Positions 2,065-21,185 of a DNA stretch of 28,245 nt are shown piece after piece. Position numbers and translations under genes: made by a program. The DNA comes from a virus: the IMG/VR virus record IMGVR_UViG_3300022916_000911, positions 1 through 28,245 of that record, one strand, 5' to 3'. Numbering within the stretch: the stretch's first letter is position 1; each line of letters opens with the position of its first letter. A model generated the notes under the pieces. It did not search any database. It saw only the letters and a list, made by a program, of their open reading frames with translations, and had not been told where the DNA came from.

Positions 2065-3354
2065 ATGTTGAAGTTGAAACGTCGTAGAATTGAAGCCTTA
2101 CAGGAAAAGAAGTTAATGATAAATCTTATTACCTCTACTAGATTTGCAAAGAATATTTTACCTATTGTATCTACCCGTTTTTTGAAATCAGAAAATTCTA
2201 AACTGGCTTTAAGTTGGATCAAATCTTATTACGATAAGTATAAGGAAGCACCAAAGGGTAATTTAATTGCTTTATTTAATGAGGCGACCATAGATGAGAA
2301 TGATTCTAAGTCGGCAGTTGTTTCCGATTACCTTACTTCTTTATCAGAGGAGTATGAAGATTATGATATAAATATTTTGTATGAAATTGATGAGGCAAAG
2401 AAGTATATACAGCAAAGAAGTGTCGAAACTACTTTAGAGGATGCAAAGATTTTGCTTGATAAGAATCAAGTAGAGAAGTCGGAAAATCTTCTAAAAGCAT
2501 TTTCAATGAGGTTAGAGTCATTTGGGGATATTATGATGAATATATCCCATACGGCTATTAAGTCTTCTGATTTTCTTAATAAAGAAATAGAACAACCAAC
2601 TTCAATAATTGATCCTTGGCTAACAGATGGTAACATATCCATGATTTATGCACCAAGGGGTATTGGTAAAACTTGGTTGTCTTTATCAATTGCGGTTATG
2701 GTTTCTAGAAAAAGGGCTACCGGTAAAAGATTTGGACCATGGGAAGTAATGAATGAATCCGGAGTTTTATATGTTGATGGTGAGATGGGCGATTATGAAA
2801 TGCAAAAAAGATTAAAGATATTGAAAAAGTTATATGGTGAGGAGTCGGATGAAAATCCATTGACTTTATTAACATCTGCAAGGTATGCCGCGGAACATGG
2901 GGCACAAATGAATATTTCTTTAGAGGAATATAGAAATGCCCTTTATCAATATTTGTTTGAAAATTCTCATTATAATTTGGTTATTTTAGATAATATTTCA
3001 TCTTTAACCCCAGGACTTTCGGAAAATAGTAAAGAGGATTGGGATCCAATAAATCAGTGGTTGATATCATTAAGACATTTAGGTGTATCCGTAATTTTGA
3101 TTCACCATTCTGGTAAAGGAAATGTTCAAAGGGGTACATCTGGAAGGGAAGATGCCTTGGATTGTATTTTAACTTTGAGAAGATCCACCGTTCAGGTTGG
3201 TAATCAAGGTGCAAGGTTTACAGTTGTTTTTGAAAAGTCAAGGAATATACCACCTGGACCCGGAATTCAATCTTTTGATATGGAGTTGATGGAGGATGGT
3301 AGAGGTGGAGTTGAGTGGGTTAGATTATTTAATGAGGATGATGACGATGAATAA
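2065..3354 (+). CDS. replicative DNA helicase, DnaB/RepA-type RecA-fold ATPase
   Basis: A 429-residue protein. The first roughly 150 residues are helical and look like a DnaB-type N-terminal domain (an EKKLMINLIT stretch, then FAKNILP and a helix-rich block). The ATPase domain has Walker A APRGIGKT at residues 196-203, a DGEM motif near 240, a Walker B-like LVILDNIS near 310, and an IHHSGKG sensor-like segment followed by RGTSGRED, typical of the RepA/DnaB-like AAA_25 group. It would unwind DNA at the phage fork. ATG 2065 is chosen because AGGAG lies 7 bases upstream; the TTG at 2059 is too close to that site. It follows the initiator, the usual initiator-helicase pairing. Confidence 0.85.
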   Translation: MLKLKRRRIEALQEKKLMINLITSTRFAKNILPIVSTRFLKSENSKLALSWIKSYYDKYKEAPKGNLIALFNEATIDENDSKSAVVSDYLTSLSEEYEDYDINILYEIDEAKKYIQQRSVETTLEDAKILLDKNQVEKSENLLKAFSMRLESFGDIMMNISHTAIKSSDFLNKEIEQPTSIIDPWLTDGNISMIYAPRGIGKTWLSLSIAVMVSRKRATGKRFGPWEVMNESGVLYVDGEMGDYEMQKRLKILKKLYGEESDENPLTLLTSARYAAEHGAQMNISLEEYRNALYQYLFENSHYNLVILDNISSLTPGLSENSKEDWDPINQWLISLRHLGVSVILIHHSGKGNVQRGTSGREDALDCILTLRRSTVQVGNQGARFTVVFEKSRNIPPGPGIQSFDMELMEDGRGGVEWVRLFNEDDDDE

Positions 3355-3358
3355 AAGT

Positions 3359-3397
3359 GGTGTAAAAAATATCGGTTTGGTATATAATGGATTAACA
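3359..3397 (+). promoter_or_regulatory. phage promoter-like element P1 upstream of queD
   Basis: GTGTAAAAAATATC (3360-3373) is followed after nine bases by TATAAT (3383-3388), then GGA and TTAACAG. The same arrangement recurs with identical spacing at 4470-4511. If TATAAT is the -10 box, the -35 position is GTGTAA with a 17-base spacer, which departs from the TTGACA consensus. It drives queD, whose AAAGGAGG Shine-Dalgarno starts at 3401. Confidence 0.7.
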
Positions 3398-3418
3398 GAC
3401 AAAGGAGGAGGATTTTAA

Positions 3419-3787
3419 ATGTTATCAGTTACGAAGAAATTTGATTTTTGTTATGGTCATTGTTTGCCAGGTCATAAAGGAAAATGTAAAAACACTCATG
3501 GCCATAATTCTACGCTGGAGGTAGAATTGGTTTCTACAGAAACAACAGACAAAATGAATATTTACGATGGAATGATTATTGACTTTGGTGATTTGAAAAA
3601 TTTAGTTAAGGAGACGATTATCGATAGATTGGATCATCAGTACCTAAATGAAATTTTAGAAGTGAATCCAACAGCTGAGAATTTGGTTAAATGGACTGTT
3701 AGGGAACTTCAGAATGTGTTTGGTAAAAGTTTAGTGAGGGTTAGGATTTATGAGACACCAGATTCTTATGCAGAATGGAGATTATAA
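3419..3787 (+). CDS. queD: 6-carboxy-5,6,7,8-tetrahydropterin synthase QueD
   Basis: QueD converts dihydroneopterin triphosphate (the FolE product) to 6-carboxytetrahydropterin, the second step of preQ0 synthesis. The 122-residue length fits the family. Zinc ligands His14, His27 and His29 (FCYGH and THGHN) and the catalytic Cys23 in GKCKNTHGHN are visible. The LDHQYLNE segment, the PTAENL motif and the C-terminal ETPDSYAEW substrate-binding segment are also present. It has a strong AAAGGAGGAGG ribosome site and its own promoter-like element. The stop TAA (3785-3787) touches the queE ATG, so queD and queE are likely coupled. Confidence 0.95.
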   Translation: MLSVTKKFDFCYGHCLPGHKGKCKNTHGHNSTLEVELVSTETTDKMNIYDGMIIDFGDLKNLVKETIIDRLDHQYLNEILEVNPTAENLVKWTVRELQNVFGKSLVRVRIYETPDSYAEWRL

Positions 3788-4447
3788 ATGAATAAGTTGA
3801 ATATTTACTCTATATTTCCGAGTGTAGAAGGTGAAGTAAGTTTATATGGACAGGGCAGACTTACTACATTCATCAGATTTGCCGAATGTAATCTTACACC
3901 CCCTTGTAAATATTGCGACACCACTTATGCCTTGAAGAAATCCTCTGGTACTGAAATGACCGTACAACAGGTTTTTGATAAAGTTAAAGAGATTGGGATA
4001 CCAAAGGTAACTATAACAGGTGGTGAGCCTTTGTTACAATCAGAAGGGTTTTATGAGTTGACTAAGAAGTTGTATTGGGAAAATTATAGAGTGTCTGTTG
4101 AGACAAACGGTACTCTTCCCTGTGTAGGTTATGGAGTTGGTTCATGGATTGTGGATTATAAGTTGCCTAGTTCTGGTTGTATGGATAAAATGAATTTGGC
4201 TGCTTTTGAAAATCTTAGAGGTACGGATTATGTTAAGTTTGTTATTGAAGATGAAACTGATTTTTTAGAGGCTTTGAATTTTAAAGAATGGTTACAAATA
4301 AGAAATAATGTGCATTTTGCTTTTTCTCCTAGTCATGGAAATTTGAGTCCTGATGAGTTAATATCTTGGTTAATGAAAGAGAAGGTATATGATGCTATTT
4401 TAAATGTTCAGCTTCATAAAGTATTGAATTTAAAGGAAGAAAAATAA
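3788..4447 (+). CDS. queE: 7-carboxy-7-deazaguanine synthase QueE (radical SAM)
   Basis: QueE is a radical-SAM enzyme that contracts 6-carboxytetrahydropterin to 7-carboxy-7-deazaguanine. The 219 residues start with the family hallmark IFPSVEGEVSLYGQGR. The FeS-cluster cysteines are Cys34, Cys40 and Cys43 (CNLTPPCKYC), which is CX5CX2C rather than the canonical CX3CX2C. The SAM-binding GGEPLL motif is near residue 78 and VETNG near 106. The VDYKLPSSG stretch and the FSPSHG segment match QueE proteins. Other spacings of the cluster motif are known in the QueE family, so the enzyme is probably active. The gene begins directly after queD. Confidence 0.93.
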   Translation: MNKLNIYSIFPSVEGEVSLYGQGRLTTFIRFAECNLTPPCKYCDTTYALKKSSGTEMTVQQVFDKVKEIGIPKVTITGGEPLLQSEGFYELTKKLYWENYRVSVETNGTLPCVGYGVGSWIVDYKLPSSGCMDKMNLAAFENLRGTDYVKFVIEDETDFLEALNFKEWLQIRNNVHFAFSPSHGNLSPDELISWLMKEKVYDAILNVQLHKVLNLKEEK

Positions 4448-4469
4448 AAAACAAAAAATATGAAAAAAA

Positions 4470-4511
4470 GGTGTAAAAAATATCACTTCAGCATATAATG
4501 GAGTTAACAGG
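4470..4511 (+). promoter_or_regulatory. phage promoter-like element P2
   Basis: GTGTAAAAAATATC (4471-4484), nine bases, TATAAT (4494-4499), then GGAG and TTAACAGG. It matches P1 at 3359 in sequence and spacing although the nine-base spacer differs, which indicates conserved function. It lies in the 109-base gap between queE and the wHTH gene, about 57 bases ahead of its ATG. Confidence 0.7.
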
Positions 4512-4556
4512 TCAAGGTTAAGTTTTTATTTTTAAACAATTTAAAGGAGGAGTAAA

Positions 4557-5138
4557 ATGGGAATTTCCAAATTGAAAGTGGATATGGATGAGCTTGGTAA
4601 GATGAGTAGTCTTTTGAACGATGCGGGTATTGTCAAGAATAAGATTAAGATTGACAAGAAGATGAAGAAGGTGGATGCAATTGAAAGTTTTATGAAGGCA
4701 GTTGAGTCAATTCCAGAAAAGGTTGAAAATGATATTCCTGCTGAGGTAACAATTTTTTATAATGCATTGGTGGATCAATTGGAGGCACAAGTGGCGGAGA
4801 CTAAAAAGGATAAACCGGAAAAGGTAGATAAACCGAAAGAGACTAAAAAGGATAAACCGGAAAAGGTAGATAAACCGAAAGAGAAAAAAGAGAAGGTTGT
4901 AAAGGAAAAAGTAGGTGAGGATGAATTTGGGTATCGACTTAATACTAAATCCCACTTTTTTGTTGAGGAGCTTAAAAAGGGACCTATTGCAATGAAGGAT
5001 ATAAAGGAATGTCCCTGGAATGATAACAAGGCCACTTATTTTGGCACCTTCAGCGCTTTGAAAAAGGTTGGGGCAGTTTCTAAGGATGAAGATGGCAAAA
5101 TGGTTTTTAATTCCAAATGGGATGAAAAGGAGAAATAG
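4557..5138 (+). CDS. lysine-rich protein with internal repeat and C-terminal winged-helix-like domain
   Basis: A 193-residue protein of unknown function. Residues 1-75 are helical with many lysines. Residues 80-122 are highly charged and include a 14-residue unit (ETKKDKPEKVDKPK) repeated twice in tandem, encoded by an exact 42-bp duplication at 4797-4880. Residues about 128-185 (FVEELKKGPIAMKDI...SALKKVGAVSKDEDGKMVF) have the pattern of a winged helix. Together this suggests a DNA-binding or nucleoid-associated protein with a basic linker; that is inference. The gene has its own promoter-like element P2 and a strong AAAGGAGG site, implying high expression, and it separates queE from queC. 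Confidence 0.6.
   Translation: MGISKLKVDMDELGKMSSLLNDAGIVKNKIKIDKKMKKVDAIESFMKAVESIPEKVENDIPAEVTIFYNALVDQLEAQVAETKKDKPEKVDKPKETKKDKPEKVDKPKEKKEKVVKEKVGEDEFGYRLNTKSHFFVEELKKGPIAMKDIKECPWNDNKATYFGTFSALKKVGAVSKDEDGKMVFNSKWDEKEK
4797..4880 (+). repeat. two perfect 42-bp tandem repeats within a CDS
   Basis: Units at 4797-4838 and 4839-4880 are identical and continue into GAGAAAAAAG. They encode a 14-residue Lys/Glu/Pro linker unit twice. Perfect identity at the DNA level points to recent duplication or slippage. Confidence 0.9.
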
Positions 5139-5139
5139 C

Positions 5140-6768
5140 ATGAGTTCAGTTTTGGTGTTGTTGTCTGGTGGACAAGACTCGGCCACATGTTTGGCCATGG
5201 CCGAGTCTAAGTATGATGAAATTCATACAATATCTTTCGATTATGGTCAACGTCATTTGGTAGAATTGGAGTGTTCAAAGTGGTTGTCAGAGGCGGTTGG
5301 GGCAAAAAGCCATACGGAATTGAAGGTTTCCTCTATACGGCAGCTTGGTGGATCCGCTTTAATAGAAGATGGAAATATTTCTGGTGATCATGTGGTTAAT
5401 AAGGATTTGCCGGCATCTTTTGTACCAGGAAGAAATTATCTTTTTCTTGGATTGGCGGCGGCAAAGTCCTATCAATTAGGTGTAAAGGATATGATTACTG
5501 GTGTTTGCCAAACTGATTTCTGTGTTAGTGGAGATACCCTCATTGATTGTCCTCGTAATCTGGAACTTTATCCTGATGGAATTCCTATTCGAGAATTAGT
5601 TGATAAGGAGTTCATGGTTTGGTCGTGGGATATTGAAAAACAACAAACCGTTTTAAAACCAGCTTTTAATGTTAGAAAAACTTTGGAAAATACACCAATT
5701 TTTGAAGTAAAATATGAATGGGGGGTTGGAAGAAATAAAAGCATTAGAACAATTAAGGCAACAGAAAACCATCGTTTTCTTTTGAGAAGTGGGGAATATG
5801 TAAAACTTAAAGATTTAAAATTGGGTGATTCCTTACAACCTTTTCATACTGCATTTGATAGTAATTATCGGTTGGTAACTGATAGACCTGGTCATGTTTA
5901 TTATGAACATAAAATGATTGTGGTACAACAGGAAAATGTTAAAATGGAATCTACCTTTGATTGGGTTGCACATCACAAAGATAAAAATCCATTGAACAAT
6001 AATTGTGATAATTTGGTTGCCATGGATCATTCCAATCATATGGCAATGCATGCTAAGGAAAAATGGGCCTCCGGAATGATGGATGAGAATAATTTATTTA
6101 TAAATGATAATCCAATGGGTCATAAGGTTTTTAGGAAAAAAGTTTCTAAAAAGAAAAAAGAATGGTGGGATAACATAACCCCTGAAAAAAGGGAAGAATT
6201 TAAGGATCGGGCGAGGGAAAATACTTTAAAACAAATGAAGGAATTAGAATATATAAATCCCTCACAATTGCCTGGGGTTAAATTCAAACAAAGATATATG
6301 GCTTATAAAAGATATGGTAACGAGGATGGAATGGAAAGTGTTCGAATAGAGGCCGAAAGGAATGGTTTTAGTTTAAATCATAAGGTAGTTTCCATAAAAG
6401 CCGTTGGTAATGAGGACGCTTTTGATATAGAAGTTAAGGATACACATAATTTTGCTGCAAATGGAATTTTTATTCATAATTCAGGATATCCGGATTGCCG
6501 GGATACTTCAATAAAGGCAGTTCAGGCGGCTCTTAATTTATGTTTGGATTATGATATTATAATTCATACCCCACTTATGTGGATGACCAAGGCAGGGACA
6601 GTTTTAAAGATGGACTCACTTGGTAAATTGGATTGGTATAAAAATACTGTAACTTGTTATGAAGGAAAGAGACCACCTTGTGGTAAATGTCCCTCTTGTT
6701 TGCTTAGGGCAAAGGGTTTTGAAGAGGCCGGTTTTAAAGATCCTGCAGTGGAGGCATTTAATGGATGA
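5140..6768 (+). CDS. queC: 7-cyano-7-deazaguanine synthase QueC precursor, interrupted by an intein
   Basis: QueC uses ATP and ammonia to turn 7-carboxy-7-deazaguanine into preQ0 (7-cyano-7-deazaguanine). The 542-residue precursor contains a 320-residue intein, leaving a mature protein of about 222 residues, the normal QueC size. The N-extein has the PP-loop SGGQDS at residues 9-14, FDYGQRH and PGRN; it stops at GVCQTDF. The C-extein resumes with SGYPDCRD, and contains the TPLMW segment and the zinc-type CYEGKRPPCGKCPSC. Joined, the extein reads DFSGYPDCR, the conserved QueC motif. ATG 5140 is chosen over upstream starts because AAGGAG lies 7 bases before it; the preceding gene's stop ends at 5138. 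The stop overlaps folE by 8 bases. Confidence 0.95.
   Translation: MSSVLVLLSGGQDSATCLAMAESKYDEIHTISFDYGQRHLVELECSKWLSEAVGAKSHTELKVSSIRQLGGSALIEDGNISGDHVVNKDLPASFVPGRNYLFLGLAAAKSYQLGVKDMITGVCQTDFCVSGDTLIDCPRNLELYPDGIPIRELVDKEFMVWSWDIEKQQTVLKPAFNVRKTLENTPIFEVKYEWGVGRNKSIRTIKATENHRFLLRSGEYVKLKDLKLGDSLQPFHTAFDSNYRLVTDRPGHVYYEHKMIVVQQENVKMESTFDWVAHHKDKNPLNNNCDNLVAMDHSNHMAMHAKEKWASGMMDENNLFINDNPMGHKVFRKKVSKKKKEWWDNITPEKREEFKDRARENTLKQMKELEYINPSQLPGVKFKQRYMAYKRYGNEDGMESVRIEAERNGFSLNHKVVSIKAVGNEDAFDIEVKDTHNFAANGIFIHNSGYPDCRDTSIKAVQAALNLCLDYDIIIHTPLMWMTKAGTVLKMDSLGKLDWYKNTVTCYEGKRPPCGKCPSCLLRAKGFEEAGFKDPAVEAFNG
5521..6480 (+). mobile_element. in-frame intein with HNH homing endonuclease domain in queC
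   Basis: The 320-residue element starts with Cys1 (CVSGDTLIDC, block A) and ends with NGIFIHN, followed by Ser+1 of the extein, all expected for class 1 protein splicing. Block B-like KATENHRFLL carries the TXXH-type His. Block F-like DIEVKDTHNF sits 12 residues before the C-terminal Asn. Between them is an HNH nuclease core: His-His at intein residues 151-152 (HHKDKNPLNNN) with downstream NL and HMAMH. A lysine-rich segment follows. The DNA is continuous in frame with queC, so this is an intein, not an intron. It sits in the most conserved active-site motif, as homing elements usually do. Confidence 0.93.
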
Positions 6769-7321
6769 AAATAGATCCCAATCCTTAGAGGCGGTAACAA
6801 AACTGTTGGAGTATATTGGTGAGGATCCCAATCGGGAGGGTTTGTTGGAAACCCCCGAAAGGGTAATTAAGGCCTACGACTTTTTGTTTTCCGGATATAA
6901 ACATAAAGTTGAGGACGTTATAAAGACCTTTGATTCTGATGGTTATAATCAAATGGTTTTACTTAAGGATATAGAAATGTATTCCTTTTGTGAACATCAC
7001 ATGCTTCCTTTTTTTGGTAAAGTTCATGTGGCTTATATACCAAACAATAGGGTTATCGGAATATCAAAGTTAGCCAGAGTGGTTGAAATTTTTAGTAAAC
7101 GTCTTCAGATACAGGAGAGACTGGGTGAGCAGGTTACTGAGTCTTTGATGACTCATTTACAACCCAAAGGTGCCGCCTGTATAATTGAGGCGAGCCATTT
7201 ATGTATGAGAATGCGTGGGGTAGAAAAACAAAATTCTGTTATGGTCACCTCCAGTTTGAAAGGTATATTTATGACGGATAACGCCGCTCGGGATGAACTG
7301 TTAAAGTTGATAGAATTGTAG
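6761..7321 (+). CDS. folE: GTP cyclohydrolase I FolE
   Basis: FolE converts GTP to dihydroneopterin triphosphate, the entry step shared by folate and preQ0 synthesis; here it most likely feeds QueD. The 186 residues match the family length. Zinc ligands Cys77 and His80 (FCEHHMLPFFGK) and Cys148 (ASHLCMRMRG) are visible. The GISKLARVVEIF, RLQ-Q-RL and AACIIEASH motifs are intact. ATG 6761 is chosen because GGAGG lies six bases upstream and the longer frame would only read through queC. The start overlaps the queC stop by 8 bases, indicating coupled translation. Confidence 0.95.
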   Translation: MDENRSQSLEAVTKLLEYIGEDPNREGLLETPERVIKAYDFLFSGYKHKVEDVIKTFDSDGYNQMVLLKDIEMYSFCEHHMLPFFGKVHVAYIPNNRVIGISKLARVVEIFSKRLQIQERLGEQVTESLMTHLQPKGAACIIEASHLCMRMRGVEKQNSVMVTSSLKGIFMTDNAARDELLKLIEL

Positions 7322-7331
7322 GGGGTTTTGT

Positions 7332-8048
7332 ATGAGAGTAATGGCGGTTTCTCCAATTAATAAGAGATCCGGTAAGGTTGAACTTAGTCGGTATTGTAAA
7401 CTAGCGGAGCAAAGTAAGTGTGACATTATTGTATTTCCGAGTTCCTTTTTGCCTTATTATAAAAATTCTACGGCTTTTTATGAGCAGCAGAATATTGAAA
7501 CCTTACCGGGTAAGGTACCGGATAATCTTATGGTAATTGTTGGGGTAAATGAGAAAGCCGGTGAAAAACTCTATAAAACCACGGTATCCTTTACTTCTAC
7601 TGGAATTAAACATATACACCGAAAAATGAATCTGGAACAACATTATATTGATAAGGGGTTTAGTTCCGGTAGTGGTGAGGATTTTCAGTTTTACTACGAT
7701 ACCTTGGGTATTAAAATAAATCCATTAGAATGTTTTGAGACCCTTTTCTCAGAGAATTGGAAAGGGGCGGATTTGGTAACTGGAAGTGTTGGCTTTGGTA
7801 TGTTGGCTAAAACGGATAATTATGATTGTGATTATTTTGATCAATGGTTAAATGTAATTAAGACTCATTGTTTATTACATAATTGTTATGCCGTTCTTTC
7901 CTGTAATGCCCAGTATAGGGATATTATGACGGTGGCAGTAAATAAATCCGGAGAGGTAGTAGCCATGGCTAGAGATCATGGTTATTTTGTGGTGGATTTG
8001 GATAAGGATGATTTTCAAAGACACAAGACCCCGTATTTACAACAATAA
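7332..8048 (+). CDS. nitrilase / carbon-nitrogen hydrolase-fold protein, atypical active site
   Basis: A 238-residue protein that follows the nitrilase-superfamily fold: MRVMAVSPINKR at the start, CDIIVFPSSF, VIVGVNEK, the lysine motif HRKMNL (Lys98), the cysteine motif ECFETLF (Cys134), and the GEVVA/GYFVVDLD ending. Catalytic Lys and Cys are present. The first glutamate, normally in a PE motif, seems replaced by Ser37 (FPSSF), and the second acidic residue after the lysine looks like Asp107. Substrates of this superfamily are nitriles and amides. It lies between folE and the dpdA-like gene, so the cyano group of preQ0 is an attractive substrate, but this is inference; it may also be a non-hydrolytic binding protein. 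The start follows AGGGGGT. Confidence 0.7.
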   Translation: MRVMAVSPINKRSGKVELSRYCKLAEQSKCDIIVFPSSFLPYYKNSTAFYEQQNIETLPGKVPDNLMVIVGVNEKAGEKLYKTTVSFTSTGIKHIHRKMNLEQHYIDKGFSSGSGEDFQFYYDTLGIKINPLECFETLFSENWKGADLVTGSVGFGMLAKTDNYDCDYFDQWLNVIKTHCLLHNCYAVLSCNAQYRDIMTVAVNKSGEVVAMARDHGYFVVDLDKDDFQRHKTPYLQQ

Positions 8049-8058
8049 GGAAAATGAT

Positions 8059-9033
8059 ATGAAGAAAAAGGTAAGTTTATTTTTGGATTCCGGAGCTTTT
8101 TCGGCATGGTCTAAGAATATAGAAATTAATTTACAGGATTATATAGATTACATAAAGAAGGTTGAGCATATTGTTGAGGTATATGCCACATTAGATGTAA
8201 TTGGAAATCCTGAAAAAACTTATGAAAATCAACTTGAAATGGAAAGACAGGGTTTGAATCCTATTATCACACTTCATAAAGGTGAGGATATGAAGTGGTT
8301 GAAATTGTATTTAGATAGATATGACTATATTGCCTTGGGCGGTATTGCCGGTGGAGTTACAGCGGTTGATATAGAAACTCATTTGAATAAGTGTTGGGAA
8401 ATTATTTGTGATACTCCAGATAGAAAACCTCGCTGTAAGGTACACGGATTTGGTCTTACTTCTTTGAGACTTATAACCAGATACCCATGGTATAGTGTAG
8501 ATAGTACTTCATGGGTTATGACAAGCAGGTTTGGTTCAGTTTATGTTCCGAGAATGAAGAATGGAAAATATGTGTATGTTCCATTTACGGAGGATGGAAA
8601 ATATATACCTAATTTGTCAAGTTGGAAAGTTTGTGTGTCTGAAAGGTCACCTTCAAATAAAGAAGCGGATAAGCATATTACATCCTTTACTGAGATGGAA
8701 AGGAGGATGATTTTAAAGTATTTGGATTACAAGGGTTTTAAGTTAGGTAAGTCAGAATTTAAGGAAGTAGGTAAGGGATATGAACTTAAAGAGGGTGAAT
8801 CCTGGTTTGGTAAGGAAGAATTAAATACGAAGGAGAATATACAAGGTAATGAATGGAAGGGTAAAAAGAGTAGGACTGTTGAAATTATAATTGAACCAGG
8901 GTTGTGCAATGATTATAAACTCCGGGATGAATTGAATATTATTTACTTTAGTGATCTACAAGAGGCTTTTCCGGAGGAACCTTGGAGTTGGACATCACAG
9001 GCTACTCCGAGAATGTCCATGGGGTTAAAGTGA
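8059..9033 (+). CDS. dpdA: DpdA-like 7-deazaguanine DNA transglycosylase (TGT-fold)
   Basis: A 324-residue TGT-like TIM-barrel protein. Asp10 lies in FLDSGAFSAW, the signature of phage DpdA proteins. YATLDVIGNPEKTYENQ, YIALGGIAGG, KVHGFGLTS and YPWYSVDSTSW (Asp148, the likely nucleophile) follow in the family's order. DpdA enzymes swap guanine in DNA for a preQ0-derived base. The C-terminal 110 residues are more variable. Its location after queD-queE-queC-folE supports the DNA-modification role. ATG 8059 is chosen because AAGGA lies 7-8 bases upstream, and the 27 residues gained from the upstream start overlap the nitrilase-like gene. The stop overlaps the next ATG (tgATGa). Confidence 0.87.
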   Translation: MKKKVSLFLDSGAFSAWSKNIEINLQDYIDYIKKVEHIVEVYATLDVIGNPEKTYENQLEMERQGLNPIITLHKGEDMKWLKLYLDRYDYIALGGIAGGVTAVDIETHLNKCWEIICDTPDRKPRCKVHGFGLTSLRLITRYPWYSVDSTSWVMTSRFGSVYVPRMKNGKYVYVPFTEDGKYIPNLSSWKVCVSERSPSNKEADKHITSFTEMERRMILKYLDYKGFKLGKSEFKEVGKGYELKEGESWFGKEELNTKENIQGNEWKGKKSRTVEIIIEPGLCNDYKLRDELNIIYFSDLQEAFPEEPWSWTSQATPRMSMGLK

Positions 9034-9209
9034 TGAAGATATTTTTAGCTACATGGACTGAGGATAATCAAGGGGAGACCTTGTCAAAAGTGGATTACAA
9101 AAATAGACTTATGTCATACTTTTTTCTAAGGGATGTAAAGGATGATGATTTTGTTTTGGAGTATGTTTTTAGAGGCAAGGTAAGGAGAAAAAATGAAAAT
9201 AAAGACTGA
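9033..9209 (+). CDS. short MKIFLA...NRLMSYFF protein downstream of dpdA
   Basis: A 58-residue protein starting MKIFLATW and containing KNRLMSYFFLRD at residues 23-34. The same pattern (MKIYFAG...NRLxSxYY) starts the small proteins at 10208 and 10347 and the polymerase at 10471. The ATG overlaps the dpdA stop in tgATGa, so it is translationally coupled to dpdA; the 3' end overlaps the clamp start at 9193. I recall similar leader sequences at the N-terminus of some longer phage TGT-like proteins, so it may be a detached domain acting with DpdA, but this needs a profile search. Confidence 0.65.
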   Translation: MKIFLATWTEDNQGETLSKVDYKNRLMSYFFLRDVKDDDFVLEYVFRGKVRRKNENKD

Positions 9210-10206
9210 TCTTCTTAAAGAAATTCTTTTGAAGGTAAAGCCAGGTCTGGCCTCAAAAGGTATAGTGGAACAAGCCACCCATTTTATATTTACTGGAGAG
9301 GAAGTTTTAACATATAACGATAGAATATCTATTAGTTATCCATTAAAAACTGATTTTGGGGATTGTTCCGTACCGGCTGAGGTTTTGTATAATATTGTTA
9401 AGGATTTGAAGGGTAAGGAAACAGAAATAGTATTGGAAAAGGATCAATTGTTATTAAAAAGTGGGAAAACCAAGGTCGGTATTAATGTATCAATGGATGA
9501 CAGCATTATGTCATTAGTGGATGCAATGAGTTTACCGGATGATGATTCCTGGAATCCATTGACTCAGGAATTTATTGATGGTTTAAAACTTTGTATATTT
9601 TCTGCATCCACTGATGTTTCAGTGCAGTATTTAACATGTATTAGTGTTGAGGGGAACCGTTTAGTATCAGGTGATGAATTAAGGATTAGTGAATTTGTTA
9701 TGAAAAATAAACTTCCTGACAAATTCTTGATTCCGGCAAAGGCCGCAATAGAATTGGTTAAGTTTGATATTATTGAATACGGTATAAAGTTACCCTGGAT
9801 ATTCTTTGGTACCGATGATGGTATTCTTTTTTCTTCTAAAACTGTTGAAAGTGATTATCCGGATGTGTCAGAATTTTTTGATGTTGATGGTCCCAGTGTA
9901 GTTATACCGGATGGTCTTAACGATAGTGTTAGAGTAGTTTCCCCAATGTCAGATGGAGAGTTTGATGTTGATAAGCAGGTTGAAATTAGTATTGAAAAGG
10001 GGATTGTTAAATGTAGGTCCGAAGGGATGTCTGGTTGGGCGGAAGATGCATTTGATTTAGGTCAGGATGTATCTGGTATTAGATTTAGGGTAAATCCAAT
10101 ATTCTTTTTACAGGTATTGGATAAAGAGACCACCATGATTCATGGTACAGGAAGAATTGTATTGTCTTCTGGTCAGTTTAGACACGTAGTATCATTATTT
10201 GATTGA
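9193..10206 (+). CDS. DNA polymerase sliding clamp (DnaN-like)
   Basis: A 337-residue protein with the beta-clamp pattern: alternating short strands and helices, three repeats of about 110 residues, and a C-terminal RFRVNPIFFLQVLDK ... GQFRHVVSLF segment that matches the last DnaN domain, which ends with the clamp strand used for partner binding. It would encircle DNA and tether the phage polymerase. Sequence similarity is remote, so the call rests on fold pattern, length and position just before the polymerase and clamp loader. The start AAGGAGAAAAAATG overlaps the previous gene by 17 bases. Confidence 0.75.
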   Translation: MKIKTDLLKEILLKVKPGLASKGIVEQATHFIFTGEEVLTYNDRISISYPLKTDFGDCSVPAEVLYNIVKDLKGKETEIVLEKDQLLLKSGKTKVGINVSMDDSIMSLVDAMSLPDDDSWNPLTQEFIDGLKLCIFSASTDVSVQYLTCISVEGNRLVSGDELRISEFVMKNKLPDKFLIPAKAAIELVKFDIIEYGIKLPWIFFGTDDGILFSSKTVESDYPDVSEFFDVDGPSVVIPDGLNDSVRVVSPMSDGEFDVDKQVEISIEKGIVKCRSEGMSGWAEDAFDLGQDVSGIRFRVNPIFFLQVLDKETTMIHGTGRIVLSSGQFRHVVSLFD

Positions 10207-10207
10207 T

Positions 10208-10402
10208 ATGAAAATTTATTTTGCAGGAGTTCCAGGTGGTAGTCTCAGGGAAAGGGAGAAGGAACTTTTCAAGTTGGGAATTAATAGGTTATGTTCCTTT
10301 TACTATTTGGATCAGACGGAAATCACCATTGAGGAGTTTATAAAGAATGATAATTTACTTCGCCGGAAACGGGGGAATTCAAAGGGAAAGATTGTTGATT
10401 AA
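10208..10402 (+). CDS. short MKIYFAG...NRLCSFYY protein (paralogue)
   Basis: A 64-residue protein starting MKIYFAGVPGG with INRLCSFYYLDQTE at residues 27-40. It belongs to the same short family as the proteins at 9033 and 10347. There is no clear Shine-Dalgarno; the ATG lies two bases after the clamp stop TGA, so reinitiation is likely. Its basic C-terminal tail (RRKRGNSKGK) is encoded in the 56-base overlap with the next paralogue, suggesting the tail arose when a longer gene was truncated by tandem duplication. Confidence 0.6.
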   Translation: MKIYFAGVPGGSLREREKELFKLGINRLCSFYYLDQTEITIEEFIKNDNLLRRKRGNSKGKIVD

Positions 10403-10532
10403 GCATAATACAAATCGTCTAGTTTCCTATTTTTATCCTAACCAATTAATACAACTCATGGAGGAGCGAAATGAAGATATATCTTGCCTCAGTGGGACAT
10501 CAACAAGCTCTGGCAAGGATGATGAAATGTAA
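10347..10532 (+). CDS. short MIIYFAG...NRLVSYFY protein (paralogue)
   Basis: A 61-residue protein starting MIIYFAGNGG with TNRLVSYFYPNQL at residues 22-34. It overlaps the previous paralogue by 56 bases in another frame and overlaps the polymerase start by 62 bases, so its last 20 residues (Ser/Thr-rich) may carry no function. GAGGAG lies 10 bases before the ATG. This is the third copy of the short family, followed by a fourth at the polymerase N-terminus. Confidence 0.55.
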   Translation: MIIYFAGNGGIQRERLLIKHNTNRLVSYFYPNQLIQLMEERNEDISCLSGTSTSSGKDDEM

Positions 10533-13209
10533 GAAGGATGTTAATATATTATTTTCATATTATGATTTAAGTGGTCAATCTGGAATTCCATTTAGAAAAG
10601 ATTTATTTGAGGAGATGGTGATGAAAGGATTTTTTTCAAAACAAGAAGTGAGACCATCTGCAACAAAAAAGGGTAATGTAAATCCTTGCGAGGTCTGTAA
10701 ACTTTATAAGAAGGTTGAATCACCGAGAATGGAAATTACTGGGGATGGAGAAAAAGGTATTCTAATAATAGGAGGGTCTCCAGGTAAAACTGATGACGAA
10801 AAATGGAAGGAGTCCGGTTATGATAAACCAACTCAATTTATTGGTAAGTCTGGATCCATTCTCCGAACCTCACTTAGAAAAAATGGTATTTATTTAGATA
10901 AGGATTGTTGGAAAATAAATTCAATTAGATGTAGAAAGCCGGAAAACAAAAAAATTACAAAGAGGGAGTTAAAACTTTGTAGGGATCATTATTTGGATTT
11001 TATAAAGGAGAATAAACCAAAGTTTATATTACTTTTGGGTGATGTAGCAGTTGAATCCTTTTTTATGGGAAGATTTTCTGGTCTTGCCATTAGTAGGTGG
11101 AGGGGTTTATGTGTACCGGATAAGGAAACAAATGCATGGGTTATTCCTTTGTTTCATCCTTCATACATTTTAAAAAATGGTAATGATGTAGGGCTTAAGT
11201 CTTTGTTTGAAAGGGATTTGAAAAGGGCAATTGAACATACAAAACAGTTGTCGCATCCTGAATTTGAGGATTTTGAAAGTCAAGTTGAATTGGCAACTAA
11301 TTTTGACAGGGCAAAGCAGTTATTAAGAAATACACTTGAATTTGCAAGTGAGGTGGCATTTGATTATGAGACATCCGGATTAAAACCATATTGGGAAGGT
11401 CATGTAATTTGGACTTTGGGTATTTGTAATGATATTGGTGATTGTTTTGCCCTACCTTTTGAATATAAGAATTGGTCTGATGATGAGTTGACTGAGCTTG
11501 AAGATATTTGGATTGCCATTCTTGAAAATTCCAGAATAAAGAAAATTGCTCATAACTTAAAATTTGAGGAGGCATGGAGTAGGGTAATATATGATGCCAA
11601 GGTTAAAAATTGGCATTGGTGTTCTATGAATGTTGCCCATCTTTTAGATTGCAGAACCAGGTTTACCGGTTTAAAATTTCAGGCATATATAAATTTTGGT
11701 GTAGGGGAATATGATAAAGACGTAAAGAAATATATGGCCCCAAGGCCTGGTCAAAAGTTAAATCGTCTGGATAAAGTACCAATAAAGAAACTTTTACTTT
11801 ATAATGGTATGGACGCAATACTTACTTATAGATTATATTTGCGTCAGAAGGATTATTTAAAAACCAAGGCCGGTATTCGAAAGGCAAAGGATTTTTGTTT
11901 AAAAGGTCTTTTGGCTTTAGCCGATGTTCAGGATACTGGTATTAATATGGATGAGAAGTATTACAAGGAAAAGACTATAGAGTTAAAGAAACGGATTTCA
12001 AAATTGAATGAAGAAATAAATAATAGTGTGGAGGCTAAATTATTTAAGAAAATTACTAAGCGGGAATTGAGTCTTAGATCAACTAAGGATTTGAAGGAAC
12101 TTTTGTTTGATATTCTTGAGCTTGAACCTACCAAGGTTACTGATAATGGTAATCCTTCAGTGGATAAAGAAGTTATGGCCAATATTGGTATTCCCTTCAC
12201 AGACAAACTTACAGAAATGAGAGTCTTGGATAAAATCCAAGGAACTTATCTTGCTCAGTTTATAAGGGAGATTGAGGATGATAAAATGCATCCTTTCTTT
12301 GATTTACATACGGCAAGAACCTACCGCAGTTCATCTTCTAACCCCAATTTCCAGAACATTCCAACTAGGAGTGAACTGGCCAAAAAAGTAACAAGATATG
12401 GTATTATTCCAAGTCCAGGATGTTTATTATGTGAAGTGGATTATGGGTCAATTGAAGTTAGGGTCGCCGCTTGTTTCACTAAGGATCCAGTATTGGTGGA
12501 TTATATTAATGATACTTCTACCTGTATGCATAGAGATCAGGCAAAATTACTTTTTAAAATGACAGATAAGGAGGTTACTACGGCAGTTGATGGGGCTTCT
12601 ACTAATTTAAGATTTTTTACAAAAAATCAATTTGTATTTCCAGAATTTTATGGTTCATGGTATAAGGCCTGTGCTCGTGGTTTATGGGATAATTGTTTTG
12701 GTTTTTCAATTGATGGTGTGGCTGTAAAAGACCATGTGGGTATGTCGTATGCCCAATTTGAAAATCATGTTAAAAAGGTTGAACAAAAATTTTGGAAGAG
12801 ATTTAAGGTTTTCAAAAAGTGGCAGGAATCTATGATTACTAGTTATAATAAGAAGGGTTATGTAGAAATGATGTTTGGTCACCGTCGTGGTGAATATCTT
12901 AATCATAACAAAATTATTAATACACCAATTCAGGGAACAGCTTTTCATTTACTTTTATGGAGTTTAATTCGGGTTAATGAAATACGTAAAAAGGAGGGAT
13001 GGAAGTCTAGAATTATTGGTCAGATTCATGATAGTATGTTATTAGATGTACATCCGGATGAAAAGGACCATGTTTTTTCTGTAATAAATAGGGTAATGTG
13101 TGAGGACGTTAGGGAGGAATATCCATGGATTATTGTTCCGTTTGAAGTGGATTTTGAAACATCACCAATAGATCGTCCGTGGTATGAAAAGGAGAAAGTA
13201 AAATTATGA
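10471..13209 (+). CDS. family A DNA polymerase with N-terminal family-4 UDG-like domain
   Basis: A 912-residue fusion. Residues 1-45 repeat the MKIYLAS...SYYDL module of the upstream small proteins. Residues about 70-260 resemble family-4 uracil-DNA glycosylase: Cys73-x2-Cys76, IIGGSPG, FIGKSGSIL, Cys154 and Cys170 (CX15C, the FeS spacing), and LFHPSYIL. The usual GEAPG glutamate is Gly. Residues about 290-480 form a 3'-5' exonuclease (Asp298/Glu300, AHNLKFE, YNGMD). The polymerase domain has motif A VDYGSIEVR (Asp657), motif B Arg714...Lys718...YG, and motif C QIHDS (Asp854). It is the replicative polymerase. GGAGGAG precedes the ATG. A UDG-like domain on SPO1-type phage polymerases has been described as far as I recall. 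Confidence 0.9.
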   Translation: MKIYLASVGHQQALARMMKCKKDVNILFSYYDLSGQSGIPFRKDLFEEMVMKGFFSKQEVRPSATKKGNVNPCEVCKLYKKVESPRMEITGDGEKGILIIGGSPGKTDDEKWKESGYDKPTQFIGKSGSILRTSLRKNGIYLDKDCWKINSIRCRKPENKKITKRELKLCRDHYLDFIKENKPKFILLLGDVAVESFFMGRFSGLAISRWRGLCVPDKETNAWVIPLFHPSYILKNGNDVGLKSLFERDLKRAIEHTKQLSHPEFEDFESQVELATNFDRAKQLLRNTLEFASEVAFDYETSGLKPYWEGHVIWTLGICNDIGDCFALPFEYKNWSDDELTELEDIWIAILENSRIKKIAHNLKFEEAWSRVIYDAKVKNWHWCSMNVAHLLDCRTRFTGLKFQAYINFGVGEYDKDVKKYMAPRPGQKLNRLDKVPIKKLLLYNGMDAILTYRLYLRQKDYLKTKAGIRKAKDFCLKGLLALADVQDTGINMDEKYYKEKTIELKKRISKLNEEINNSVEAKLFKKITKRELSLRSTKDLKELLFDILELEPTKVTDNGNPSVDKEVMANIGIPFTDKLTEMRVLDKIQGTYLAQFIREIEDDKMHPFFDLHTARTYRSSSSNPNFQNIPTRSELAKKVTRYGIIPSPGCLLCEVDYGSIEVRVAACFTKDPVLVDYINDTSTCMHRDQAKLLFKMTDKEVTTAVDGASTNLRFFTKNQFVFPEFYGSWYKACARGLWDNCFGFSIDGVAVKDHVGMSYAQFENHVKKVEQKFWKRFKVFKKWQESMITSYNKKGYVEMMFGHRRGEYLNHNKIINTPIQGTAFHLLLWSLIRVNEIRKKEGWKSRIIGQIHDSMLLDVHPDEKDHVFSVINRVMCEDVREEYPWIIVPFEVDFETSPIDRPWYEKEKVKL

Positions 13210-18586: not shown

Positions 18587-19687
18587 ATGGGAATAGATTC
18601 AGTACATTTACAGAATTTTCAATCACATGCGGATAACTTATTGGAATTTACTCCTGGTATAAATGTGATAACAGGTTCTAGTGATGTAGGAAAATCTTCT
18701 ATAATGCGGGCAATAAAGTGGGTGGTTACTAATAGGCCTTCTGGCAACGCATTTACATCCCATTTTGCCTCAAAACCAAAGACTTCCGTTTCTTTGGTTA
18801 TTGATGGAAGGAAGGTAGAAAGAACTCGTTTTAAATCTATTAATAAGTATAGATTAGACAAAGTGGATTACAAGGCAATTCGTACAGACATTCCTCAGGA
18901 AGTTCAGGATTTTGTTAATTTATCAGAAGAAGTGAATTTGCAGTCACAACATGATTCTTATTTTTTGTTACAGGATTCGTCTGGTGAAGTTGCCAAGAAA
19001 TTGAATAAGGTGGCAAATCTGGCTATTATTGATTATTCCCTGAAAAGTGTTAATGTTGGTATTACTGGTACTAATAGGGATGTCAATACCGGTAAGTCTA
19101 CTATTTCTGATTTAGAGTCAGAGTTAGAAAAGTATGATAATTTGGATTGGGTAGAACAGTTATGTTCCGATTTGAATGATTTTTTGAGTGAGATCTCAGA
19201 TTTAGAACAAGAACAGGAAGAATTAGAAGCCTTGTTGGATAGAATAGAGGTAATTGAAAATAATATTTGGGAATGTAATATATATGTATCACTCGAAAAG
19301 ACTGTTGATAATTTAGTATCCCAAACAGGTGAAATACAGGAGTTAATAGACTACAATGATAAGTTATTACAATTAGTGGAGTCCATTGAATCTTCCAAAA
19401 ATGGTATAGAGGATATAGAGATTATTCTTTCCTTCGAGCCGATAATAAAAACTATTTTGGATTTCATAACGGATTATCAGTTTTTGTTTCAAGAAGTGGA
19501 TGATTTGGAAAATTTAGTAAATGCCATAGAGGAATGCGAATCCGGTATACAGGTAGCGGATAAGTTGATAGATAGGACAGTAGCCAAAATGATTAAATTG
19601 GTTAAGGAAACTGGAATTTGTCCAATATGTGGTAATACTAGTACTACTCATGTAGCGGATCATATAATGAGGTGGCTTAATGTCTAG
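18587..19687 (+). CDS. SbcC/Rad50 N-terminal half (Walker A, coiled coil, zinc hook)
   Basis: A 366-residue ATPase fragment. Residues 1-110 form the N-terminal nucleotide-binding lobe with Walker A GSSDVGKSS (30-38) and a LQSQHDSYFLL Q-loop-like segment. Residues about 150-340 are coiled coil. Cys345-Pro-Ile-Cys348 is the zinc-hook motif, and the protein stops 18 residues later. The signature motif and Walker B are missing; they occur in the separate gene at 21422. The two products together with SbcD should form one Rad50/Mre11-type nuclease complex that opens or trims DNA ends. GAGGAGAATGGG precedes the ATG. Confidence 0.85.
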   Translation: MGIDSVHLQNFQSHADNLLEFTPGINVITGSSDVGKSSIMRAIKWVVTNRPSGNAFTSHFASKPKTSVSLVIDGRKVERTRFKSINKYRLDKVDYKAIRTDIPQEVQDFVNLSEEVNLQSQHDSYFLLQDSSGEVAKKLNKVANLAIIDYSLKSVNVGITGTNRDVNTGKSTISDLESELEKYDNLDWVEQLCSDLNDFLSEISDLEQEQEELEALLDRIEVIENNIWECNIYVSLEKTVDNLVSQTGEIQELIDYNDKLLQLVESIESSKNGIEDIEIILSFEPIIKTILDFITDYQFLFQEVDDLENLVNAIEECESGIQVADKLIDRTVAKMIKLVKETGICPICGNTSTTHVADHIMRWLNV

Positions 19688-20261
19688 ACTTTGTGAGTGT
19701 GGGTGCGGACAGGTAGTGAAATCCGGAAATAGATTTATTCAGGGTCATAATAGTAGAGGTAGAATATTAACAAAAGAGCATAAAGAAAAGATACGTAAAG
19801 GTAATAAAAATAAAATCGTTACGGAAGAAACCAAAGAAAAATTAAGGATAGCACAAACAGGAAAAACGTATTCAGAGGAATCGAAGGCTAAAATGAGCAG
19901 GTCTCATATAGGTCAGGCCCCTTCTTCAACCTCTTGGAAGAAAGGAAATGTTCCATGGAATAGAGGTAAGAAATCCAGGTTATCCACAATAGTAAAACTT
20001 ATGCGACCAAGGATTGATGGGTATTGTGATGCATGGAGTGATGAGGAGTACAAAAACGATCTTAGAAAAGGAGCCTGTGAAGAATGCGGAATTACAAATA
20101 TGATGAGTATCCATTTATTTGGATTTATACTAAGTAACCATCACGAAAATGGAAAGGAAAATTGCTCTCCCGATGATATTAGAACATTGTGTCATAGTTG
20201 TCACATGAGTCATCATATGATATTACGACATAAGAAAATGCGGGCAGAAGGAGGATATTAA
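19680..20261 (+). CDS. free-standing HNH homing endonuclease with NUMOD motifs
   Basis: A 193-residue protein. The N-terminus has CECGCG cysteines and a FIQGHNSRG motif, then NUMOD3-type repeats (LTKEHKEKIRKG, VTEETKEKLRIAQTG, YSEESKAKMSRSHIG). The C-terminus has a zinc-type HNH core: CEECG, SNHHENGKENC and TLCHSCHMSHH. It overlaps the upstream SbcC N-half gene by 8 bases and is followed by sbcD. It is probably a selfish mobile gene inserted in the operon. Its presence between the two halves may be linked to how the sbcC gene was split. Confidence 0.85.
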   Translation: MSRLCECGCGQVVKSGNRFIQGHNSRGRILTKEHKEKIRKGNKNKIVTEETKEKLRIAQTGKTYSEESKAKMSRSHIGQAPSSTSWKKGNVPWNRGKKSRLSTIVKLMRPRIDGYCDAWSDEEYKNDLRKGACEECGITNMMSIHLFGFILSNHHENGKENCSPDDIRTLCHSCHMSHHMILRHKKMRAEGGY

Positions 20262-21185
20262 ATGAGCCATTTTCTGGTAACTGGCGACTGGCATATACGG
20301 GCTTCGAAACCCAGATATCGTATGGATAAAAGTTATGTGGATACTGAAGGTAGGAAATTGGAGTGGTTGTTTGCAACTGCTGAGAAATATAATTGTTCCG
20401 CAATTTTACAACCAGGTGATATGTTTGATTCCTATGATATACCTAATTATATGAAAATAAATTTAGTTAACAAATTTCGGGCTGGTTTGCCAGTGTATTC
20501 CATTTATGGTCAACATGATTTAAAGTATAGAAATCATAAAGATACAGTAATGTCCTTATTTGATACGATAGGAGTCGTAAAAGTATTTGATCAACCACAT
20601 CCGGTAGAGATTGACGATTGTAATATTTATGGTTCTGGGTGGGATGAGCCGGTACCTAATATAGTAAATTCAAATAAAGTAAATATATTACTTACCCATG
20701 AAATGATAGTTGGGGATGGGGCATTGTGGTATGGTCAGGAAGATTATATTGAAGCAAAGGATGCTTTAAAAAAGTGGGATGGTTTTGATTTAATTGTGTC
20801 GGGAGATAACCATCAATCTTTTCATTATATGAATAAAAAAAGAATGTTACTTAATTGTGGTTCCTTGATGAGAACCAGTATATCTCAAGTAGATCATAAA
20901 CCAGTAGTATGGATATATGATAGTGTTACAAAAACTGCTGAATGTTTGGAAATCCCGATAGATCCAATAGAAGAGATAATGGACTTAGACCTGGCGGATA
21001 CTATTAAGTTAAATAATAAAAAGTTGGATGAGTATAATGAGTATCTTTCTTCGGATTATTCTGTTGAGTTGGATTTTGAAAAAACAGTATTTAATTCTGT
21101 GAAGATAAATAAGGTAAAAGGTAGGACACAGGCGGTTGTAAAAGGTATCTTTAAATCTTATTACGACGAATTGGGGGTTGGATAA
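20262..21185 (+). CDS. SbcD/Mre11-like nuclease
   Basis: A 307-residue calcineurin-type phosphoesterase, the nuclease partner of SbcC. Metal-binding motifs appear in order: GDWH (8-11), PGDMFD (51-56), GQHD (83-86; usually GNHD), LTHE (144-147), SGDNH (180-184) and NCGS near 200. A C-terminal cap of about 80 residues follows. The ribosome site AGAAGGAGG is excellent. It lies between the two halves of the ATPase. The Asn-to-Gln change in GNHD is unusual because that Asn coordinates metal or phosphate in related enzymes, though it may be tolerated. Confidence 0.88.
   Translation: MSHFLVTGDWHIRASKPRYRMDKSYVDTEGRKLEWLFATAEKYNCSAILQPGDMFDSYDIPNYMKINLVNKFRAGLPVYSIYGQHDLKYRNHKDTVMSLFDTIGVVKVFDQPHPVEIDDCNIYGSGWDEPVPNIVNSNKVNILLTHEMIVGDGALWYGQEDYIEAKDALKKWDGFDLIVSGDNHQSFHYMNKKRMLLNCGSLMRTSISQVDHKPVVWIYDSVTKTAECLEIPIDPIEEIMDLDLADTIKLNNKKLDEYNEYLSSDYSVELDFEKTVFNSVKINKVKGRTQAVVKGIFKSYYDELGVG

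Follow-up and report, generated by a model that had tools for sequence, protein, structure and literature searches.

The queC gene of the virus record analyzed here (28,245 bases, hereafter the window) is interrupted by an element that is, with a probability of about 85%, a full-length class-1 HNH homing intein that would splice out to leave an active QueC, cut intein-free queC, and spread in this manner. The intein sits at a single bond of a QueC motif that is invariant among the viral relatives we aligned, and its closest relative is found at the same bond in an otherwise unrelated phage. As a mobile element it is of an ordinary kind; its landing site is apparently undescribed.

Anatomy of the QueC intein

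The insertion takes up precursor codons 128 to 447, exactly 320 codons, in frame and free of stops (Table 1). Its first residue is Cys1, block B holds T81-x-x-H84 (ATENH), block F reads D302...H309 (DIEVKDTHNF), and the terminus, DIEVKDTHNFAANGIFIHN, places H319-N320 directly before Ser+1; both Cys1 and TENH are kept in the QueC intein of a second phage contig, L002. Pfam Intein_splicing matches the element with 59.5 bits (cut-off, 35.8) and the intein C-terminal model TIGR01443 with 28.1 bits (cut-off, 15.6), while the N-terminal model TIGR01445 reaches 21.0 bits over residues 1 to 87, 3.5 bits under its cut-off of 24.5. The DnaB mini-intein 1mi8 aligns over residues 2 to 103, DnaB-type inteins in the PDB align with both ends of the element, and a DnaX intein aligns with its C-terminal region. 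All sequence features of a class-1 intein are present: Cys1, TxxH, a C-terminal His-Asn followed by Ser, HINT homology, and a precise in-frame insertion. A first-pass annotation of this DNA had called a complete-looking 320-residue HNH intein at the DFSGYPDCR bond; its coordinates proved exact to the base, and the splicing motifs and the Pfam match (E = 4.3e−16) bear the call out. An intron in queC was ruled out by the open frame and by Rfam, where no RNA family, introns included, was matched in the queC region.

Removal of the intein is predicted to leave a full-length QueC of 222 amino acids, in agreement with the product of about 222 residues expected earlier. When the exteins are joined, TIGR00364 recognizes a complete QueC in one uninterrupted match (217 bits; equivalog cut-off, 150.3); the joined sequence aligns nearly end to end with Bacillus subtilis QueC (3bl5) and contains the motifs SGGxDS and SGYPDCR and the C-terminal cysteine motif. 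For the N-extein, the evidence is the Pfam QueC match over precursor residues 4 to 128 together with the 3bl5 alignment. In the AlphaFold model of the precursor, only the QueC halves are good, matching 3bl5 and 2pg3, and a separate model of the intein was unusable (pLDDT, 39); we therefore make no structure-based claim of a HINT fold.

Between the splicing halves, HNH_3 matches residues 149 to 174 with 21.5 bits, below its cut-off of 24.8, and PHROG 7545 (HNH endonuclease) matches the intein at 1e−7. The residues H151, H152, N160, N164, H173, and H177 (HH...N...N...H) are invariant in the three inteins compared. In the nuclease region, the codons of the window and L002 inteins are 66% identical at first, 74% at second, and 47% at third positions, a pattern consistent with purifying selection in the one pair compared, with third positions near saturation. 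With just two sequences of the HNH lineage found, this is a weak test of selection on the nuclease, and the transfer may have happened long ago. Residues 244 to 283 are 72.5% identical between these two inteins, compared with 39.5% for residues 201 to 243, and possibly serve in DNA binding.

Table 1 Features of the intein-bearing queC gene, neighboring preQ0 pathway genes in the window, and further inteins at the same QueC bond
Feature	Location	Strand	Basis or description
queC, intein-bearing	5140-6768	+	542 codons plus stop
QueC N-extein, residues 1-127, terminus ...GVCQTDF	5140-5520	+	Pfam QueC, 3bl5 alignment
Intein, 320 aa, Cys1 ... His319-Asn320	5521-6480	+	Pfam Intein_splicing, 13 empty QueCs, L002 homologue
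N-terminal splicing region, residues ~1-107, blocks A and B (TENH 81-84 = 5761-5772)	5521-5841	+	TIGR01445, 1mi8
HNH core, residues ~147-177 (DWVAHHKDKNPLNNNCDNLVAMDHSNHMAMH), between splicing halves	5959-6051	+	HNH_3, PHROG 7545, conserved residues
Conserved segment, residues 244-283	6250-6369	+	Identity between the two HNH QueC inteins
C-terminal splicing region, residues ~284-320, blocks F and G	6370-6480	+	TIGR01443; PDB DnaB/DnaX inteins
QueC C-extein including stop, start S-G-Y-P-D-C-R, contains CGKCPSC motif	6481-6768	+	TIGR00364 on joined exteins
QueD	3419-3787	+	PHROG 2389, QueD-like, 1.4e−23
QueE	3788-4447	+	PHROG 2076, QueE-like, 3.7e−28
FolE, GTP cyclohydrolase I	6761-7321	+	PHROG 2197, 3.3e−70; start overlaps queC stop
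DpdA-like transglycosylase	8056-9033	+	PHROG 887, queuine tRNA-ribosyltransferase, 8.8e−49
HNH intein in QueC of L002 (IMGVR_UViG_3300003536_000020; phage contig, 53.7 kb)	2939-3892		318 aa
Intein in QueC of L009 (phage contig, 60 kb)			374 aa, LAGLIDADG-like domain, terminal Gln
Intein in QueC of L005 (Omnitrophota MAG)			488 aa, Ser1, LAGLIDADG
Intein in QueC of L003/L022 (Deltaproteobacteria MAG NP119)			446 aa, Ser1, LAGLIDADG

A recurrent insertion site in QueC

Alignment with 13 intein-free viral QueCs places the opening at a single clean bond, D-F/S-G-Y-P-D-C-R (the slash marks the insertion), which is empty in 13 of the 15 QueCs aligned. The flanks, D-[FY] and S-G-Y-P-D-C-R, are invariant across those 13, and because of this invariance the SGYPDCR motif presumably lies in the QueC active site. 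Since its codons are conserved, they would also present a homing nuclease with a conserved target; the central 30 nucleotides of the joined site of the window are identical at 21 of 30 positions to those of L002 and likewise at 21 of 30 to those of L026, a phage contig with an empty site. In INPHARED, no record covers the intein-bearing QueC query at 80%, and 60 records spaced evenly down the ranking of 284 QueC matches all have intein-free length save one fragment.

Scanning viral contigs at the protein level, seeded with nothing but the window intein, returned no relative. DNA patterns for the splice junctions did better: viral contigs were scanned with the C-terminal pattern (HN or QN, then [STC]GYPDCR) and with the N-terminal one, and a genome collection of about 85,000 species with the C-terminal pattern. 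Beyond the window, four further inteins were found at exactly this bond, two in phage contigs and two in bacterial MAGs. An extra N-side DNA pattern for the bacterial QueC motif gave no matches. Pattern matches on L004, L006, L007, and L010 arose by chance and were ruled out by the absence of a QueC frame. A second intein-like match (L021; G003:C76:66251-66598) lies in a 1,598-aa frame of the Omnitrophota MAG.

The intein of L002 resembles that of the window in its bond, its Cys1 and terminal HN, its Ser+1, and its HNH domain; every catalytic motif is retained, and the two are 61.6% identical over 318 aa. The inteins of L009, L005, and L022 occupy the same bond but carry LAGLIDADG rather than HNH domains (that of L009 is LAGLIDADG-like, just under the Pfam cut-off); those of L005 and L022 begin with Ser1, that of L009 ends in Gln, and none is similar in full length to the window intein. 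Full-length similarity is confined to the pairs window/L002 (61%) and L005/L022 (24%), and hence at least three intein lineages occur at this bond. The sequences support the view that DF/SGYPDCR is a recurrent intein hotspot, colonized by unrelated lineages in both phages and bacteria. The insertion point given in the first-pass annotation stands, whereas its uniqueness is reduced by the four additional inteins.

Horizontal spread between phages

In a maximum likelihood tree of 68 QueCs, the QueC of the window groups with the intein-free QueCs of L026 and L033 (support, 100/97), and that of L002 sits within a separate clade (support, 99/91). Constraining the window and L002 QueCs to one clade was rejected (AU test, P = 0.000284). 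The QueC nearest to that of the window, with 63% identity and an empty site, belongs to L026, a contig syntenic with the window over ten genes at 40 to 65%, which encode a repO-like protein, a helicase, QueD, QueE, a basic protein, QueC, FolE, DpdA, a clamp, and a UDG-PolA protein. The L002 contig, compared with the window proteins at an E-value of 1e−4, shares only QueC (44%; 44.2% between the exteins) and remote forms of RecA (29%) and ribonucleotide reductase (26%); nothing else in the two contigs comes close to the intein in similarity. Horizontal spread of the HNH intein between phages, as a homing element does, is the best explanation of these sequence relationships. The mobility proposed in the first-pass annotation is therefore borne out in outline, because the same intein resides in an otherwise unrelated phage.

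Other mobile-type nucleases were seen in these contigs. L026 encodes an HNH endonuclease domain (residues ~1 to 226) fused in frame ahead of FolE (3636 to 4880), a second mobile-type nuclease beside the preQ0 pathway, in a syntenic relative with an empty QueC site. The window itself has a free-standing NUMOD3/homing-endonuclease-like ORF (19680 to 20261) between an SbcC-like gene part (18587 to 19687) and an SbcD-like gene (20262 to 21185).

The preQ0 pathway of the phage

FolE, QueD, QueE, QueC, and a DpdA-like transglycosylase are all encoded within the window, and the transglycosylase is expected to use preQ0 in DNA modification. The QueC product would be required for this pathway of the phage itself. 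It is established that phages shield their DNA from restriction with 7-deazaguanines (Hutinet et al. 2019, cited in PMC10343443). A lysine-rich repeat protein (KPKETKKDKPEKVD; 4557 to 5138) is encoded between QueE and QueC and has a counterpart in the syntenic L026. Between FolE and the DpdA-like gene lies a carbon-nitrogen hydrolase gene (nitrilase-like, PF00795; 7332 to 8048); because preQ0 bears a nitrile, a further base-modification step by its product is conceivable, if speculative. Elsewhere in the window (10471 to 13209), a uracil-DNA-glycosylase domain is fused to a family A DNA polymerase that has a 3'-5' exonuclease.

Proposed homing and alternative explanations

We hypothesize that the intein is translated in frame with QueC and would excise itself via an N-S shift at Cys1, transesterification to Ser+1, and cyclization of Asn320. 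Splicing would join precursor residues 127 and 448 into the active 222-aa QueC that serves the preQ0 DNA-modification pathway of the phage. When two phages share one cell, the HNH domain would cut intein-free queC at the conserved DFSGYPDCR codons, and repair of the cut gene would copy the intein in; such cutting and copying would explain why unrelated phages carry it. The first-pass annotation had the HNH domain presumably cutting queC of competing phages or hosts; homing of the ordinary sort into intein-free queC would suffice, and nothing supports a role against competitors beyond it.

Might the intein still splice with an HNH nuclease that is already inactive, its spread being a remnant of the past and its persistence due to the precise deletion from an essential motif that loss would need? 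HNH_3 stays under its cut-off in the window and drops further in L002, to 15.8 bits, and we found no closely related pair of which one member has the intein and the other lacks it, hence no case of recent homing. However, three inteins share the same HNH core residues, codon-position conservation is kept in the nuclease region, and occurrence in unrelated phages requires past mobility; we regard an inactive nuclease as unlikely. The assembly could also have joined two sequences, as the virus record that makes up the window comes from a public collection of contigs rather than from a finished isolate genome, but both junctions are in frame, the splice residues lie exactly there, and L002 independently shows the same junctions, which makes an artefact of this sort barely credible. 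It is very improbable, too, that the insertion does not splice at all, being either an element of the ShiLan type, whose HNH gene is out of frame, or an insert domain that is never removed. Phage methylase genes do carry HNH insertions that lack detectable splicing domains (PMC11855218), but the HNH of the window is in the QueC frame, the set of splicing motifs is complete (Pfam, 4e−16), and an unspliced insert should destroy the invariant QueC motif that it splits.

Splicing might instead be delayed or triggered by redox, metal, or temperature and so gate preQ0 synthesis and DNA modification, a conditional reading that the first-pass annotation had also raised; in one variant, a disulfide trap might arise between Cys10 of the intein and the QueC cysteines at −5 and +6. 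The two HNH QueC inteins have both Cys1 and Cys10 in common, phage QueCs often carry the −5 and +6 cysteines, and mycobacterial DnaB inteins are reported to splice in a manner sensitive to oxidative stress and zinc (PMC6195587, PMC7360933). Yet the syntenic relative L026 manages without an intein, and a selfish element needs no regulatory role, so that we hold such a switch to be quite improbable. We give similarly little credence to the combined proposal that a hotspot of at least three lineages goes together with cue-gated (e.g., redox-gated) splicing that delays preQ0 synthesis and DNA modification in 7-deazaguanine phages; if it were true, both processes would wait on splicing. Homing by a splicing-competent intein with a working nuclease remains our preferred reading.

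Relation to known inteins and implications

That phages carry inteins close to the functional motifs of conserved enzymes is well known (PMC5050341). Like the window intein, the TerL inteins of mycobacteriophages lie near functional motifs of an ATP-using enzyme, but their extein and insertion sites differ; their splicing and, for some, endonuclease activity were demonstrated experimentally (PMC5050341). Splicing-domain homology to the window intein is detectable in the 158-residue DnaB mini-intein 1mi8 and in the RtcB-type intein model NF052663, both with exteins other than QueC. An intein in a phage portal-like protein (L012, 8001 to 9056) has Cys1, an HNH domain, and 27% identity to the window intein in a different extein. 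The portal-like gene (7749 to 11627) contains two close inteins, the first with HNH and the second apparently without a nuclease. In the papers searched for inteins with QueC and its synonyms, no QueC intein was found, in line with the first-pass remark that inteins favor replication and nucleotide proteins and are not known from a queuosine-pathway enzyme; hence, the site may be undescribed.

In summary, a gene of the queuosine pathway and of DNA modification joins the list of intein hosts, and the window and L002 clearly illustrate the movement of a single intein between phages that are otherwise unrelated. The finding raises the question of whether a homing nuclease can cut recipient phage DNA that itself carries 7-deazaguanine. 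The most useful addition is the hotspot itself, a single QueC bond on which at least three intein lineages converge.
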